Shown piece after piece: positions 6,763 to 11,713 of a stretch of 41,864 bases of DNA. A program made the position numbers and the translations under genes. The number at the start of each line of letters is the position of its first letter. Within the stretch, counting starts at the first letter, position 1. The DNA is taken from the NCBI GenBank assembly GCA_016281475.1, contig JAEEIS010000113.1, forward strand, positions 1 to 41,864, in the 5' to 3' direction. This DNA is from Bacteroidales bacterium. GTDB taxonomy: Bacteria; Bacteroidota; Bacteroidia; Bacteroidales; P3. The notes under the pieces were generated by a model. That model saw nothing but the letters and a program-made list of their open reading frames with translations, made no database searches and was not told the origin of the DNA.

Positions 6763-8235
6763 ATGGCAAAAGATTTTGTAAAACGCTCCGAGAACTATTC
6801 CGAGTGGTACAACGAACTGGTCGTGCGTGCCGATTTGGCAGAGAATTCTGCCGTCCGTGGCTGCATGGTCATCAAGCCCTATGGCTACGCCATCTGGGAG
6901 AAGATGCAGCGCGCCCTCGACGACATGTTCAAGGCCACCGGCCATCAGAACGCATACTTCCCCCTCTTCATCCCCAAGTCGTTCCTCAGCCGTGAGGCCG
7001 AGCATGTTGAAGGCTTCGCCAAAGAGTGCGCCGTCGTCACCCACCACCGCCTGATGAACAATCCCGATGGTACGGGTGTCGTTGTCGACCCCGCCGCCCG
7101 TCTCGAGGAGGAACTCATCGTCCGCCCCACCTCCGAAACCATCATCTGGAGCACCTATAAGAACTGGATCAAGTCCTACCGCGACCTGCCCATCCTCTGC
7201 AACCAGTGGGCCAACGTGGTCCGCTGGGAGATGCGCACCCGCATGTTCCTCCGCACCGCCGAGTTTCTCTGGCAGGAAGGCCACACCGCCCACGCCACCC
7301 GCGAGGAGGCCGAAGAGGAGGCTCGCCGCATGCTCGACGTTTACGCCGACTTTGCCGAGAACTGGATGGCCGTGCCCGTGGTCAAGGGCGTGAAATCGCC
7401 CAACGAGCGTTTTGCTGGTGCCCTCGACACCTACTGCATCGAGGCCATGATGCAGGACGGCAAGGCCCTGCAGGCCGGCACCTCGCACTTCCTCGGACAG
7501 AACTTCGCCAAGGCATTCGACGTGCAATTCCTCAACCAGCAGAACCAGCTCGAATATGTGTGGGCTACCTCGTGGGGGGTCTCCACACGACTGATGGGTG
7601 CCCTTATCATGACCCACAGCGACGACAACGGCCTCGTGCTGCCGCCCAAGCTCGCGCCCATACAGGTGGCCATCGTCCCCATCTGCAAGACCAACGAGCA
7701 GCTGGCCGAGCTCGATGCCCACATCGCACCCCTCATCGATGCCCTCAAGGCCAAGGGCCTTACCGTCAAGTACGACAACCGCACCGAGTACAAACCCGGC
7801 TGGAAGTTCACCGAATACGAGTTCAAGGGTGTTCCCGTGCGCCTCGCCATCGGTCCTCGCGACCTCGAGAACGGCACCTGTGAAGTCTGCCGCCGCGACA
7901 CGCTGGAAAAAATCACCATGCCCATCGAAGGCATCGCCGACCACGTCGCCCAGCTCATGGACGAGATACAGCACAACCTCCTCAACCGCAGCCGCGACTA
8001 CCGCGAAGCCAACACCCGCCGTGTCGACACCTGGGACGAGTTCCTCGTCGAAATTGAAAAAGGCGGCTTCTTACTCTGCCATTGGGACGGCACTCCCGAG
8101 ACGGAAGAAAAAATCAAGGAGCTCACCAAGGCCACCATCCGCTGCATCCCCTACGACAGCCCCGAAGAGGAAGGCCAGTGCATCCTCACCGGCAAACCCT
8201 CCCACCGCCGCGTGATCTTTGCGAGAGCATACTAA
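6763..8235 (+). CDS. proS: Prolyl-tRNA synthetase, archaeal/eukaryal type
   Basis: A 490-residue class II aminoacyl-tRNA synthetase that charges tRNA-Pro. Class II motif 2 is visible in [20 protein letters not shown] (about 158-177) and motif 3 in [26 protein letters not shown] precedes motif 2, as in ProRS. The anticodon-binding domain starts near [11 protein letters not shown]. It lacks the bacterial-type editing insertion between motifs 2 and 3 and has the extra C-terminal domain of the archaeal/eukaryal (type 3) form, ending in the conserved C-terminal Tyr (VIFARAY). Bacteroidetes generally use this form. Its last 57 bp occur a second time, diverged, at 9047-9103 beyond a toxin-antitoxin pair. 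An intrinsic terminator follows at 8257-8291. Confidence 0.97.
8179..8235 (+). repeat. proS 3' tail, copy 1 (imperfect direct repeat)
   Basis: The last 19 codons of proS, including stop. The matching copy 2 lies at 9047-9103: 50 of 57 positions are identical and both copies encode the same peptide apart from Ile/Val and Lys/Gln. Homology starts abruptly at 8179/9047 and stops right at the stop codon. The arrangement resembles the paired attachment sites left by elements that insert at a gene's 3' end. Confidence 0.85.
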
Positions 8236-8256
8236 TAGTTCTACATAATATCGTAT

Positions 8257-8291
8257 TGCCCAGAGCACCACATGTCTCTGGGCATTTTTTT
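8257..8291 (+). terminator. Intrinsic terminator after proS
   Basis: A perfect 9-bp stem (8257-8265 TGCCCAGAG with 8276-8284 CTCTGGGCA), a 10-base loop, then TTTTTTTA. It lies 21 bases after the proS stop and separates proS from the toxin-antitoxin genes. Confidence 0.85.
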
Positions 8292-8310
8292 ATTCTTCCA
8301 TACAATAAAA

Positions 8311-8330
8311 AAGTAACTATTTCGTTACCT
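8311..8330. promoter_or_regulatory. Candidate antitoxin operator
   Basis: An inverted repeat just before the toxin ATG: GTAAC (8313-8317), six-base spacer, GTTAC (8324-8328), with partial pairing outward. Antitoxins of HigBA-type modules usually repress their own operon by binding such palindromes. The assignment rests only on symmetry and position. Confidence 0.4.
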
Positions 8331-8334
8331 GTGC

Positions 8335-8667
8335 ATGGAAAGAAAACTAATATTCTCTTCAGAATACCTAGAGTTTGAGAAACAATTAAATGCCCGAACT
8401 TTAGAAAAATTGAACTATGCGGCAACGCTCTTAGAAACGTTGCCAGTCATATCTACTCGTTTTGTCAAGAAATTGGTGAACACGGATTTCTACGAGCTTC
8501 GAGTGAAGGTGGACAATGAAGTAAGAGTGATTCTTTTTTCGGTAGACTGTGAGAATATCAACAATTCAAAAACAATAATCTTTCTCAATGGCTTTGTGAA
8601 GAAAAGCACAAAAGACTACAAAAAGGAAATAATTAAGGCTACGCAAATATTAAGGAGGTTGTTATGA
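8335..8667 (+). CDS. higB: HigB/RelE-type toxin of a type II toxin-antitoxin pair
   Basis: A 110-residue basic protein with the RelE/ParE-superfamily pattern of the HigB (phage Gp49-like) branch: an N-terminal helical region, then LVNTDFYELRVKVDNEVRVILFSV, the beta-sheet core with the conserved ELR...R motif, and IIFLNGFVKKSTKDYKKEI near the end, matching the usual hGFxKKtxktP-like block. Family members are ribosome-dependent mRNA interferases. The toxin gene precedes its antitoxin and overlaps it by 4 bases (ATGA), the order typical of HigBA. The gene is clearly AT-richer than proS, consistent with transfer. Activity has not been shown; the symbol is by family. Confidence 0.87.
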   Translation: MERKLIFSSEYLEFEKQLNARTLEKLNYAATLLETLPVISTRFVKKLVNTDFYELRVKVDNEVRVILFSVDCENINNSKTIIFLNGFVKKSTKDYKKEIIKATQILRRLL

Positions 8668-9020
8668 ATACAGAAAGACTGACATCAGAGGAACTGCAAC
8701 GTATCAGACAAACAGATTTTTCTACAAAAGAAGGTTTTGTCAATGCCGAATCCGTACTGGCAGAAAGAATTGGCGAAAAAGGGAGTGGCAGCCGCTCCGC
8801 ATTCGATGCCAAGGCTAAGGCATGGTATTATGGCGAAATATTGCGCAACCGTCGCAAAGAACTAAATCTTACGCAAAAGGAACTTGCCGAAAGCGTGGGG
8901 AAAGAACGCACTTACATCAACCGTATTGAAAAAGGAGAAACCGATATGCAGTTGTCCTCCTTCATTCAAATAGCCGAAGCGCTAGGCATCAGCCTCCGCC
9001 TTGATGTCAGCATAGCATAG
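8664..9020 (+). CDS. higA: HigA-type antitoxin, XRE-family helix-turn-helix
   Basis: A 118-residue protein whose C-terminal half is an XRE/Cro helix-turn-helix domain (about 62-112: NRRKELNLTQKELAESVGKE, then RTYINRIEKGETDMQLSSF). The N-terminal 55 residues probably bind and neutralise the toxin. Its ATG overlaps the toxin's stop codon, so translation is coupled. It likely represses its own promoter through the palindrome at 8311-8330. Base composition is AT-rich, like the toxin. Copy 2 of the proS tail begins 26 bases after its stop. Confidence 0.9.
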   Translation: MNTERLTSEELQRIRQTDFSTKEGFVNAESVLAERIGEKGSGSRSAFDAKAKAWYYGEILRNRRKELNLTQKELAESVGKERTYINRIEKGETDMQLSSFIQIAEALGISLRLDVSIA

Positions 9021-9046
9021 TTTCGCTAGCCCTAACCGAATACTAA

Positions 9047-9103
9047 TGCGTCCTCACCGGCCAGCCCTCCCACCGCCGAGTTATCTTCGCGAGAGCATAC
9101 TAG
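9047..9103 (+). pseudogene. Remnant of a second proS 3' end (copy 2)
   Basis: This 57-bp piece encodes [22 protein letters not shown], in the same frame sense as the end of ProS. It differs from copy 1 at seven positions: three are silent, one swaps TAA for TAG, and three give Ile to Val and Lys to Gln. That pattern means it came from a proS that was under selection, not from decay of a local duplicate. Upstream homology ends sharply. It is followed by its own terminator-like hairpin (9138-9164). It is best read as the displaced original proS end, or the end carried in from another strain. Confidence 0.85.
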
Positions 9104-9137
9104 CCTCGGCGAACCACCGATGGCGATAATAAACGCT

Positions 9138-9164
9138 ACGCCCGCATCCCCAAGGTGCGGGCGT
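9138..9164 (+). terminator. Hairpin behind the proS-tail remnant
   Basis: A perfect 9-bp GC-rich stem (9138-9146 ACGCCCGCA with 9156-9164 TGCGGGCGT) with a 9-base loop. The following T-run is weak. Because it follows the remnant, it may be the terminator proS had before the toxin-antitoxin cassette arrived. Confidence 0.6.
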
Positions 9165-9192
9165 CAATGTTTCATTGATAATGATGTGCATT

Positions 9193-9753
9193 TTAATGGC
9201 TAAGATGGAATTCAATAAGGAATGCTGGTATTGCTATTAAAAAAATAAATAGTGCTACGATAGCACCTGATGAGGATTGATTTAGGGGTTTTGGTCTCAG
9301 CTCTTTTATTTTTTGAATTGGAGAGGAATCTCCGCATACTTTATTATAATCCTTTGGAGAACTGACATCACATTGTGACACATTTATATCCTGTACACAT
9401 ATGATTTTATCCATGGATTCATAATCTTTAATATCAACTAGTCTGTAGGAAACCGTAAAACTCATACTATCCCCATCGGAATTACCAAAAGAATATCTTT
9501 CTTTCGTAATATAATTGTTTCCTAATGCTGTTCCATATCCGTGTTTTGGGGTATAGCATGATCCCTTAACGTATAGTTCGTTTTGGGAATTATCGGAATA
9601 TCCTTTCTTTTCGTAACCCATTTTATTGAGACATATTCCGATACTGTCCATCTCTGCACGAAAATCTGTATACTTGATTGCAGAAGTTGGGGAACACCTT
9701 GCAAATATGATTGATACAGCAATGGCGATAAATACTGTACTAAGTTTTCTCAT
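9193..9753 (-). CDS. Hypothetical lipoprotein with C-terminal membrane segment
   Basis: Starting at the ATG at 9753 gives 186 residues opening MRKLSTVFIAIAVSIIFARC, a lipoprotein signal with Cys20 as the lipidated residue. A longer reading from a TTG at 9786 would put 11 polar residues ahead of the signal and is unlikely. The middle is polar, with paired Tyr/Asp/Ser-rich strands and several Cys. Near the end GAIVALFIFLIAIPAFLIEF is a convincing transmembrane helix, unusual for a lipoprotein. I recognise no family. The gene is strongly AT-rich compared with flanking genes. It has a long structured leader (9798-9946) and a GGAGG at 9773-9777, 19 bases from the ATG. Confidence 0.65.
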   Translation of the reverse strand: MRKLSTVFIAIAVSIIFARCSPTSAIKYTDFRAEMDSIGICLNKMGYEKKGYSDNSQNELYVKGSCYTPKHGYGTALGNNYITKERYSFGNSDGDSMSFTVSYRLVDIKDYESMDKIICVQDINVSQCDVSSPKDYNKVCGDSSPIQKIKELRPKPLNQSSSGAIVALFIFLIAIPAFLIEFHLSH

Positions 9754-9797
9754 GTTTTTTCTTTTATTATGTCCTCCGCACCCCAAGAACAGTCTAC

Positions 9798-9946
9798 AAA
9801 AGAAGCGTGGTGCCGTATACCACTTCTTTGTCTGAGGGTCGTGAGAAAATACCTTGATAATGAAGATGCAGCAAACAGTCCACGCTATGCGCGCGAACCA
9901 TTATACTTCCTTGCATTATCTTGAAAATTTCTCACGTTTTCAGACA
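9798..9946 (-). ncRNA. Candidate structured leader of the lipoprotein gene
   Basis: Read on the minus strand, a long interrupted hairpin is formed by 9914-9946 and 9829-9862, with three paired blocks: TGTCTGA with TCAGACA (9829-9835/9940-9946), a 9-bp block (9840-9848/9928-9936) and GATAATG with CATTATC (9856-9862/9914-9920). A second hairpin (GTGGT with ACCAC, plus AAAGAA with TTCTTT) follows at about 9798-9828. Both sit between a -7 box at 10012-10019 and the lipoprotein ATG, so they would be part of the transcript. This could be a regulatory RNA, an attenuator or the relic of a small mobile element; the sequence alone does not decide. Confidence 0.5.
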
Positions 9947-10011
9947 CAAGAAAAGCATAACGCTTCGTATTTCAATTAATTCGGTTGCGCCGCTATCGGC
10001 TTAACCTGTTG

Positions 10012-10019
10012 CAAATATA
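10012..10019 (-). promoter_or_regulatory. -7 box for the lipoprotein gene leader
   Basis: The minus strand reads TATATTTG (TAnnTTTG). A start just downstream would give a leader of about 250 bases that contains both hairpins at 9798-9946. Confidence 0.5.
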
Positions 10020-10253
10020 CAAATTATTTTTGAATCATTACATTTTTGCTCTAAATATTTTTAGAACACACGAAATAATGTAGTTAGGTGGTGGTCATTC
10101 CCTATTAATAAGTATTGATTTAGGACTTTCGGAGAATACTTGTTCGCTGGTGAAGCGGTCATGGAGCGATGAAGAACCGAAGAAATAGCGAGGTTTGTCG
10201 GGAGTAAGGTGGGGGTAAAGTGGGGGACCGTCTATGGGGAAGTGGGGCGGGGA

Positions 10254-10961
10254 CTAGGGGTTGTTGGAGGATGTGCGTTTGAATGTGTAGCGGAGGGAGA
10301 AAAAGAGTTGGCAGTTAAAGTGGTCGAAGAGTGTGGGAAGTTCGGAGTATGCCGTTTCGTAGGTGAGGATATCGTATATGATTTCGGCGGCGACGGTGAG
10401 GCGGTCGGTGAGTGGATAGGAGGCTCCTAGGTTGAGGTCGATTTCGCTATAGTTGAATATGTTTTCGATGAGGTAGTAGGCGCTTTTGCTACTTATATCG
10501 TGGAGGTTCTCGGTGGAGAACCCAAGGCCGGTGCCCACCGTGAGGGAGAGTGGGCAGCGGGTGTGAATGACCAGTTGGGGTGCCACGCGTGCCGAGAGTG
10601 TGTGCCGTGGGATGTTCCAGTCGTAGGTTGTGCCGTCGACGGCGGTGGAGTGAAGGGTGGTGTGGTGGTAGCCGTATGTGAGGGACCATTCGGCAGCGAA
10701 GTCGGTGCGGGAGCCGTTGCGGGTTTCGTAGGTGCCGCAGATGCCGGCATTGAAGCCTAGGGCGGAGACTTGGCTGAATTCGCGCAGGAGGTGCGGGATG
10801 CTGTGTATGCCTGTGCCGACGGTGGGGCCTGCGGTGATGCCGACGGAGTGTAGGGCGTGTTTTGTCGGAGTGGGGGATGGGGCGGCTGTGCCAGCGGTTT
10901 CTTGGGCTGAGAGGGTGGCGGCAAGGCTGAGGGCAAAGGTGATGAGTATGGTTTGCTTCAT
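10254..10961 (-). CDS. Small outer-membrane beta-barrel protein
   Basis: The ATG at 10961 gives 235 residues with a clear signal peptide (MKQTILITFALSLAATLSAQ); an upstream in-frame ATG (11030) would lie inside the gcvH terminator. The mature part shows repeated amphipathic strands rich in Tyr/Thr/Gly (GSRTDFAAEWSLTYGYHH, LSLTVGTGLGFST, IDLNLGASYPLTDRLTVAAE) and ends LFFSLRYTFKRTSSNNP, the usual terminal strand of an OmpW/OmpA-like barrel. It resembles the broad outer-membrane-protein beta-barrel class, without a specific function. It stands alone, behind a strong terminator for gcvH. Confidence 0.75.
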   Translation of the reverse strand: MKQTILITFALSLAATLSAQETAGTAAPSPTPTKHALHSVGITAGPTVGTGIHSIPHLLREFSQVSALGFNAGICGTYETRNGSRTDFAAEWSLTYGYHHTTLHSTAVDGTTYDWNIPRHTLSARVAPQLVIHTRCPLSLTVGTGLGFSTENLHDISSKSAYYLIENIFNYSEIDLNLGASYPLTDRLTVAAEIIYDILTYETAYSELPTLFDHFNCQLFFSLRYTFKRTSSNNP

Positions 10962-11005
10962 GTTATGTATAGACGCAAAAATGTCCGATTTCTTACCTGT
11001 GCGGT

Positions 11006-11044
11006 AAAAAAAAAGCAGGATACTCCGCAAATGGAGCGCCCTGC
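11006..11044 (-). terminator. Intrinsic terminator after gcvH
   Basis: On the minus strand, a stem of GCAGG/CCTGC (11040-11044 with 11015-11019) and CTCC/GGAG (11033-11036 with 11023-11026) is followed by nine T residues (11014-11006). It is a textbook intrinsic terminator 32 bases beyond the gcvH stop. Confidence 0.85.
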
Positions 11045-11075
11045 TATTGATTTTCAGTTAATAACGCCTTGATGA

Positions 11076-11453
11076 TTAGGCACCGATTTTGCTGGTGTAG
11101 GCAGCAGCGTCGAGCAGACCGTCGATGTCGGCCATGTTGGCGGGCTTAATTTTGATAATCCAGCCTTCGCCGTAGGGGTCGTTGTTGATGGCGGAAGCCT
11201 CTTCGAGGGCTTCGTTGAACTCGACCACTTCGCCGGTGACGGGCATGAGCAGGTCGGCAACGGTCTTAACGGCCTCGAGGCTGCCGAAAGCAGCACCGCC
11301 GTCGATGGTGTCGCCCACGCAGTCGACATCGACAAAAACGATGTCGCCAAGCTCGTGCTGGGCGTAGTCAGTGATACCAACATAAGCAAATTCGCCTTCA
11401 ACGCGTACCCATTCGTCGTCCTGGGTGTACTTTAAATTCTGAGGAATGTTCAT
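11076..11453 (-). CDS. gcvH: Glycine cleavage system H protein
   Basis: A 125-residue lipoyl carrier protein that shuttles the aminomethyl group between the P, T and L proteins of the glycine cleavage system. The lipoylation site is Lys63 in [20 protein letters not shown], with Glu60 three residues before it as usual. The N-terminal [13 protein letters not shown] and the [17 protein letters not shown] segment are family hallmarks. Length is normal. No gcvT or gcvP is adjacent; in many Bacteroidales the system's genes are scattered. Dihydrolipoyl dehydrogenase (L protein) may be the gene at 21871-23265. A -7 box and a strong terminator make it a single-gene unit. Confidence 0.96.
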
Positions 11454-11498
11454 TGTATTATTATTTTATGTGTGATTAATATTCCGTGAAATTTTCTG

Positions 11499-11506
11499 CA
11501 AAAATA
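11499..11506 (-). promoter_or_regulatory. -7 box for gcvH
   Basis: The minus strand reads TATTTTTG, fitting TAnnTTTG, 45 bases ahead of the gcvH ATG, in an AT-rich divergent spacer shared with rho. Confidence 0.5.
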
Positions 11507-11559
11507 CATAAAAAATTTTGAAATTTGAAAATTGAAAAATGAATTTTGACAAAAAAATA

Positions 11560-11589
11560 TTGCGAAATCAATTTTTTTTTATACTTTTG
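11560..11589 (+). promoter_or_regulatory. Promoter of rho
   Basis: A -7 box TACTTTTG (11582-11589) is preceded, after 19 bases, by a TTG (11560-11562), the expected -33/-7 arrangement of Bacteroidetes vegetative promoters. Transcription would start near 11595, giving a leader of about 120 bases. Confidence 0.6.
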
Positions 11590-11602
11590 TGGTGTCAAAA
11601 AT

Positions 11603-11651
11603 CGCCTTGATGGCGTGCATTATCAAGTTTTTTGCACTTGTATTCAAGGCG
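11603..11651 (+). promoter_or_regulatory. Hairpin in the rho leader
   Basis: CGCCTTGA (11603-11610) pairs perfectly with TCAAGGCG (11644-11651), and inside it GTGCA (11615-11619) pairs with TGCAC (11633-11637). The structure occupies the predicted rho 5' leader, 62 bases before the ATG. rho genes are autoregulated by attenuation in several bacteria, so this may be a control element; that role is inferred. Confidence 0.45.
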
Positions 11652-11713
11652 TTCCGCAATTCCTTATTGAATTAATTTTTTTCTCAAAACAACTAAGAAC
11701 ATAGCTATTTTTC

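Follow-up and report, generated by a model that had tools for sequence, protein, structure and literature searches.

A toxin-antitoxin pair between two diverged copies of the proS end in a Bacteroidales genome: a probable scar of homologous insertion

A HigBA-type toxin-antitoxin (TA) pair lies between the intact end of proS and a second, diverged copy of this end in a stretch of Bacteroidales DNA of 41,864 nucleotides (hereafter the window; Table 1). We propose that this layout results from the homologous insertion of a foreign gene end together with its cargo, by which the gene was restored and the resident end was left as an orphan; we assign this explanation a probability of about 0.6. The incoming DNA, from another lineage, would have brought the TA pair together with a proS 3' end and the 3' region behind it, and homologous recombination within the proS end would have joined it to the chromosome. 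The gene would have been kept whole by the incoming end, and the resident end would have been cut at an arbitrary point, leaving the orphan of 57 bp ahead of the resident 3' region. The insertion would require no recombinase of its own.

Table 1. Features around the proS end, in coordinates of the window
Feature	Position	Strand	Basis
proS (ProRS, TIGR00408 proS_fam_I), 490 aa, intact	6763..8235	+	profile match
Copy 1 of the proS end, part of the working gene	8179..8235	+	repeat comparison
3' region 1 with hairpin 8257-8284; type not seen behind proS in nearest relatives	8236..8300	+	
TA operator-like palindrome GTAACTATTTCGTTAC ahead of the toxin	8313..8328	+	sequence scan
Toxin, Gp49/HigB type, 110 aa	8335..8667	+	Pfam match
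Antitoxin, HTH_3, 118 aa	8664..9020	+	Pfam match
Linker ending in ATACTAA (part of the 8-base repeat)	9021..9046	+	
Copy 2, orphan proS end, 57 bp	9047..9103	+	repeat and relative comparison
3' region 2 with hairpin 9139-9163; resident flank, of a type that adjoins proS in several relatives	9104..9165	+	

The recurrence of the last 57 bp of proS, first noticed in a first-pass annotation of the letters, is confirmed by an ungapped match of 50/57 between copy 1 and copy 2, in which the longest identical run is 14 bp. This repeat far exceeds chance, because relatives' own proS tails, sought downstream in 80 of their loci, reached at most 31/57 (32/57 on the other strand) and the best match among 60 shuffles of the window tail was 29/57 over 4 kb. 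The 8-base repeat ATACTAAT is likewise present at 8229-8236 and 9040-9047, as reported before. The copies differ by four silent codons, one of them the stop (TAA/TAG), and by two conservative changes (I/V and K/Q), which agrees with the earlier description of the differences as mostly silent or conservative. The V and Q of the changed codons are also found in proS genes of relatives. The first-pass annotation had furthermore given each copy a terminator of its own. A hairpin indeed follows each copy, with -17.3 kcal/mol (z -5.5) and a subsequent T run after copy 1, and within a fold of -27.5 kcal/mol (z -4.3) after copy 2; however, the second hairpin has no clean T run and a simple terminator scan called neither. 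The G+C content is 40% in the insert (8236-9046, 811 bp) compared to 60.5% in proS, and 63.9% in copy 2 and the 3' region behind it.

The assignment of the genes between the copies to a HigBA-type pair is supported by Pfam, with 32.7 bits for the toxin (cut-off 23.9) and 52.8 bits for the HTH_3 antitoxin (cut-off 23); the toxin matched none of the NCBIfam models. A predicted Gp49/HigB-type toxin gene that precedes an HTH antitoxin gene, the two overlapping in ATGA, identifies the pair by its sequence. The palindrome ahead of the toxin is likely the antitoxin-binding site or operator, and the same or a similar palindrome occurs in 9 of 18 scanned TA loci, the window counted. Relatives of the antitoxin were found in 63 plasmid and 12 phage records, every one less than 60% identical, and a scan of viral contigs for the toxin returned a single fragment of 19 residues. 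The insert contains the TA pair only, in agreement with the earlier statement that the cassette of some 810 bases holds no integrase. No recombinase was found with Pfam in 20 of the 45 window ORFs of at least 230 aa and in six ORFs around proS; most of the remaining ORFs of that size overlap scanned ORFs on the opposite strand.

Comparison with relatives indicates which side of the layout is resident. The proS end and 3' region of one relative, G045, align with window 9047-9164 (78%) and then continue into gcvH-rho as in the window, and they show no alignment to window 8236-8334. The same region is aligned similarly by G050 (77%) and G017 (73%). Furthermore, window 8236-8300 has no counterpart in G045 or in other relatives that lack the pair. 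As the G045-type locus is continuous through the side of copy 2, we infer that 8236-9046 was inserted and displaced the resident end, which is now copy 2; the window thus looks like a G045-type locus carrying this insert. The empty site in G045 supports the earlier idea of an insertion behind proS that kept the gene end whole, and proS runs straight into sequence resembling that after 9104 in G045, also in G050 and G017, as the first-pass annotation had anticipated. That annotation had taken copy 2 for the incoming part. Since copy 2 adjoins the resident 3' region, the newcomer is more likely the end in copy 1 with the 3' region behind it.

To detect second proS ends in relatives, we used 94 loci (91 from the genus and three from the wider family) that contain the proS end and at least 0.5 kb beyond it; 84 of these extend at least 3 kb beyond. 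Within the genus, 114 of 120 genomes have a ProRS match (E 0.001), including weak or partial ones. Cargo followed by a second proS end was detected in three of the 94 loci. G014 (L151) contains a related pair (82% DNA identity), followed by 27 bp of proS that begin one base past the antitoxin stop and by a 3' region; here both sides bear a relative-like 3' region, with mixed scores. In G099 (L153), a lipoprotein-like gene (named by eye) precedes a proS end of 15 bp and its 3' region, and this copy 2 side bears the relatives' type of 3' region, as in the window (e.g. 31.5 vs 19.5, against G050). In G077 (L226), an ATPase-like gene (also by eye) on the opposite strand precedes a proS end of 38 bp and its 3' region, and the copies agree at 93/95 positions of the aligned stretch. 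The last two loci thus contain other cargo between proS tails, which had been foreseen. The displaced ends, stop included, measure 57, 27, 15 and 38 bp in the window, G014, G099 and G077, respectively. The count excludes four loci with a score of 14.5-16 in which the stop is not covered (L152, L168, L174 and L245) and one with a simple repeat adjoining proS (L178). Further afield, a gapped search up to 3 kb in 79 of 80 loci detected no second proS end covering the stop; in L004, one alignment was obtained 96-118 bp upstream of the stop, and seven of the 80 loci (L001-L007) come from genomes that the sampling of the genus and its close surroundings also contains. ProRS matches are split near the C-terminus in L168 (G081) and in G013:C45, possibly by a frameshift, and an array that appears CRISPR-like by eye lies just past the second proS end in G077.

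The scar appears to recur, as judged from second gene ends, at a few other genes with other cargo in related bacteria. Six of 474 non-proS genes reach the same second-end score and three were retained after inspection. In G112, the second end of a 555-codon ORF lies beyond a 205-codon ORF. In G076 and G103 (L214 and L230), the second end belongs to an ispD-like gene and the cargo is a protein of 363 aa, Fic-like by eye; the second end in L230 was retained with only 27 bp and an altered stop. Three candidates were dropped: one in L162; a low-complexity ORF of the window; and an 856-aa ORF in L151, for which the alignment ends before the stop and whose repeat we take to be a shared C-terminal domain. 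The excess of proS (4/95) over other genes (3/474; Fisher p 0.017) speaks against our explanation; with all six candidates kept (6/474), p is 0.068.

Direct repeats (score of at least 24) also flank 7 of 29 related TA pairs located elsewhere than behind proS (8 with L253). Among the controls, they occur at 7 of 1500 random placements and at 3 of 583 placements behind ORFs; the random controls were drawn from proS-downstream loci, whose genomes mostly differ from those of the TA loci, and the L214 scar itself accounts for some of their hits. The count leaves out L253, whose coding repeats presumably resemble WD40; L254, L256 and L267, which are second loci of counted pairs; and the short L276. 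Clear gene ends or a hairpin are present in just three of the seven repeat-flanked pairs, namely coding gene ends in G501 (from a convergent gene) and G539 and a hairpin in G564, the others being of no assigned type or repeats. At L265, a 38-codon C-terminal piece of a convergent gene is repeated across the TA pair with 7/7 differences silent. For ParE loci, flanking repeats were found in 2 of 23 at a score of at least 24 and in 5 of 23 at a score of 16 (best of three placements), with 7 of 30 loci left out for short flanks. The ParE rate is not significantly lower than that of the TA family (p 0.27, or 0.16 with L253); therefore, no specificity of the scar for this TA family is demonstrated.

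The differences between the duplicated ends carry information on their origin. Eight duplicated coding ends have 19 differences, of which 2, 0 and 17 fall on codon positions 1, 2 and 3, corresponding to 15 silent and three changed codons. Even under an expectation of 55% (a value chosen here), 17/19 at third positions has p ~0.0015; thus, the copies look diverged as working genes. Since fewer third-position changes are expected from a decaying local copy, the bias favours joined ends that come from different lineages. The earlier claim that the second copy derives from a functional proS of another lineage is hence supported as to divergence between working genes, but with the direction reversed. 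The third-position argument leans mostly on G501 (7 changes, with 7/7 of its differences silent) and on the window (5), and the remaining pairs contribute 5/5. The bias bears on a local origin, in which a staggered break or a template switch inserted the pair, the gene end is a long target duplication and copy 2 drifted afterwards. Such an event could explain the near-identical copies in G077 and a 49/49 repeat around the TA pair in L266. It would also fit the greater divergence of copy 2, which is the more distant of the two copies for 13 of 18 relatives, as distant as copy 1 for four and the nearer for one; this pattern is also expected from the drift of a dead copy and counts against the joining of two lineages. 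In view of the third-position bias, we nonetheless regard a local event as unlikely.

The ancestry of proS and of the pair further constrains homologous insertion as we propose it. Overall, the nearest relatives of the window proS are G045 and G121 (90% DNA identity), with other genomes nearer in some middle segments; over the last 300 bp it clearly belongs to the G045/G121 type. The donor would therefore be close kin, or the crossover would lie in the last few dozen bases. A test for a hybrid gene, which is weak at 90% identity, detected no breakpoint to another lineage in the window proS, and 3' region 1 was unmatched behind proS in the 94 loci, except for alignments through it in the TA-carrying G014 and G120; both results weigh against our explanation.

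In four genomes, those of the window, G014, G120 and G119, the pair immediately follows the proS terminator. That G120, whose contig stops 1.8 kb past proS, and G119, where most of the toxin gene is gone, carry it without a second proS end is a further point against homologous insertion. The shared position would be readily explained by a single ancestral entry behind proS, followed by vertical descent and precise losses by recombination between the repeats, and the TA region and proS of G014 are indeed similarly diverged (82% and 85%). However, the pair is scattered over the proS tree and the nearest sisters of its carriers lack it. In this tree the window groups with G045 and G121 (weakly, 92/61) and then with G120 (98/96), G014 groups with G050, and G119 with G017. 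The TA tree conflicts with it by grouping the window with G014 (91/92), but the alternative of window with G120 is not rejected (AU p 0.109). A single entry thus seems improbable to us.

The first-pass annotation had proposed that proS serves as the attachment site of a minimal mobile cassette. In its full form, this explanation posits a site-specific element, minimal or surviving as a remnant, for which the proS 3' end serves as attachment site and is restored, with a recombinase from elsewhere in the genome. A whole gene with a displaced fragment is the classic layout of such elements, and the empty site in G045 and the other cargo at the same place behind proS agree with it. Furthermore, tyrosine recombinases are present on other contigs of the six relatives searched. 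By contrast, Phage_integrase was found on the proS contig of none of these six, the repeats are imperfect, the same scar occurs at other genes, and the displaced ends start at different points, which erosion of longer ends could explain in part. Variable starts, imperfect repeats and proS contigs without integrase leave a fixed attachment site unsupported, and we consider the element quite improbable. Together with the several genes and cargoes, these observations point to homologous recombination at gene ends, so that ordinary DNA recombination seems a more likely source of the scar than a dedicated mobile element. A special role of the C-terminal Tyr, suggested earlier, is not needed for this explanation.

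Homologous insertion could have proceeded by one crossover of a circularised piece, or from a linear piece by one homologous side and one non-homologous join. Uptake of DNA is possible, as a ComEC-type competence domain is present in 7/7 relatives. As described for an E. coli lacZ construct (PMC3240628), 56 of 60 clones yielded the PCR product that marks duplication of the lacZ end (14 sequenced, 109-950 bp), and the passages on it attribute the duplication to a single crossover of a circular molecule. According to the same passages, the one-sided route would be expected to delete, which makes us lean towards the circular variant as the only one to fit directly by this precedent. Once inserted, the pair may be retained, since its loss through recombination between the repeats would free the toxin. 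It is also conceivable, if doubtful, that TA pairs flanked by gene ends are recombinase-free mobile cassettes, which recombination between the two gene ends would excise as small circles; with one gene end as homology arm, a single crossover would bring them into this gene in another cell, and addiction would protect them from loss.

Several known systems resemble the layout in part. As in single-crossover and homology-facilitated illegitimate recombination, in the parts of PMC3240628 that describe them, a small non-replicating DNA would join at a homologous gene end with a duplication of variable length and no dedicated recombinase; unlike that laboratory lacZ construct, the case here arose in nature, the TA pair lies behind a housekeeping gene and the copies have diverged. 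The sections on T6SS loci in PMC5361080 propose a one-sided displacement akin to homology-facilitated illegitimate recombination. T6SS effector-immunity displacement and orphan Rhs ends, as presented there and in the corresponding sections of PMC11751169, share with the window a conserved upstream anchor and an old remnant downstream, whereas their remnant is an immunity gene or toxin domain and ours the end of an unrelated housekeeping gene. For genomic islands in tRNA genes, the Islander description (PMC4383910) similarly has a regenerated target gene and a displaced fragment marking the ends; in contrast to the islands it describes, we found no integrase, no fixed crossover, imperfect repeats and a cargo of 0.8 kb. 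The chromosomal ccdAB of E. coli, between folA and apaH, is likewise a TA pair between two core genes with an empty site in many other strains. Unlike in the window, no end of folA or apaH is duplicated in 5/5 folA-apaH loci, of which three contain ccdAB and the other two a ccdA-like piece with other cargo, and the scar is therefore not general to TA insertions. Among the matches listed from one open-access library, none is named as a TA pair enclosed by duplicated ends of a housekeeping gene.

For most small accessory genes of bacterial chromosomes, no vehicle is visible. Where a neighbouring gene has a second, diverged end, this readable scar would allow arrivals of single genes or TA pairs by plain homologous recombination to be counted, and it warns against labelling such layouts as integrase sites.

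Lastly, we note some observations on the surrounding sequence. The linker resembles a worn proS end of the G045 type (TTCGCTAG ... ATACTAA), a score that 42 of 3000 shuffles equalled against a target picked after the fact; it may possibly be a remnant of another proS end, as a trace of an earlier insertion. The orphan end in G014 likewise begins right after the antitoxin stop. An intergenic repeat of ~280 bp at 9757-10035 is matched in 36 of 41 genus genomes, often several times, with some matches covering only ~25 bp at its end; Rfam gave no match to it or elsewhere in window 8000-11700. The stretch between proS and gcvH (window 8236-11075) varies from ~0.9 to 6 kb and in content among the eight relatives in which gcvH was located, and by this comparison appears to be an insertion hotspot.
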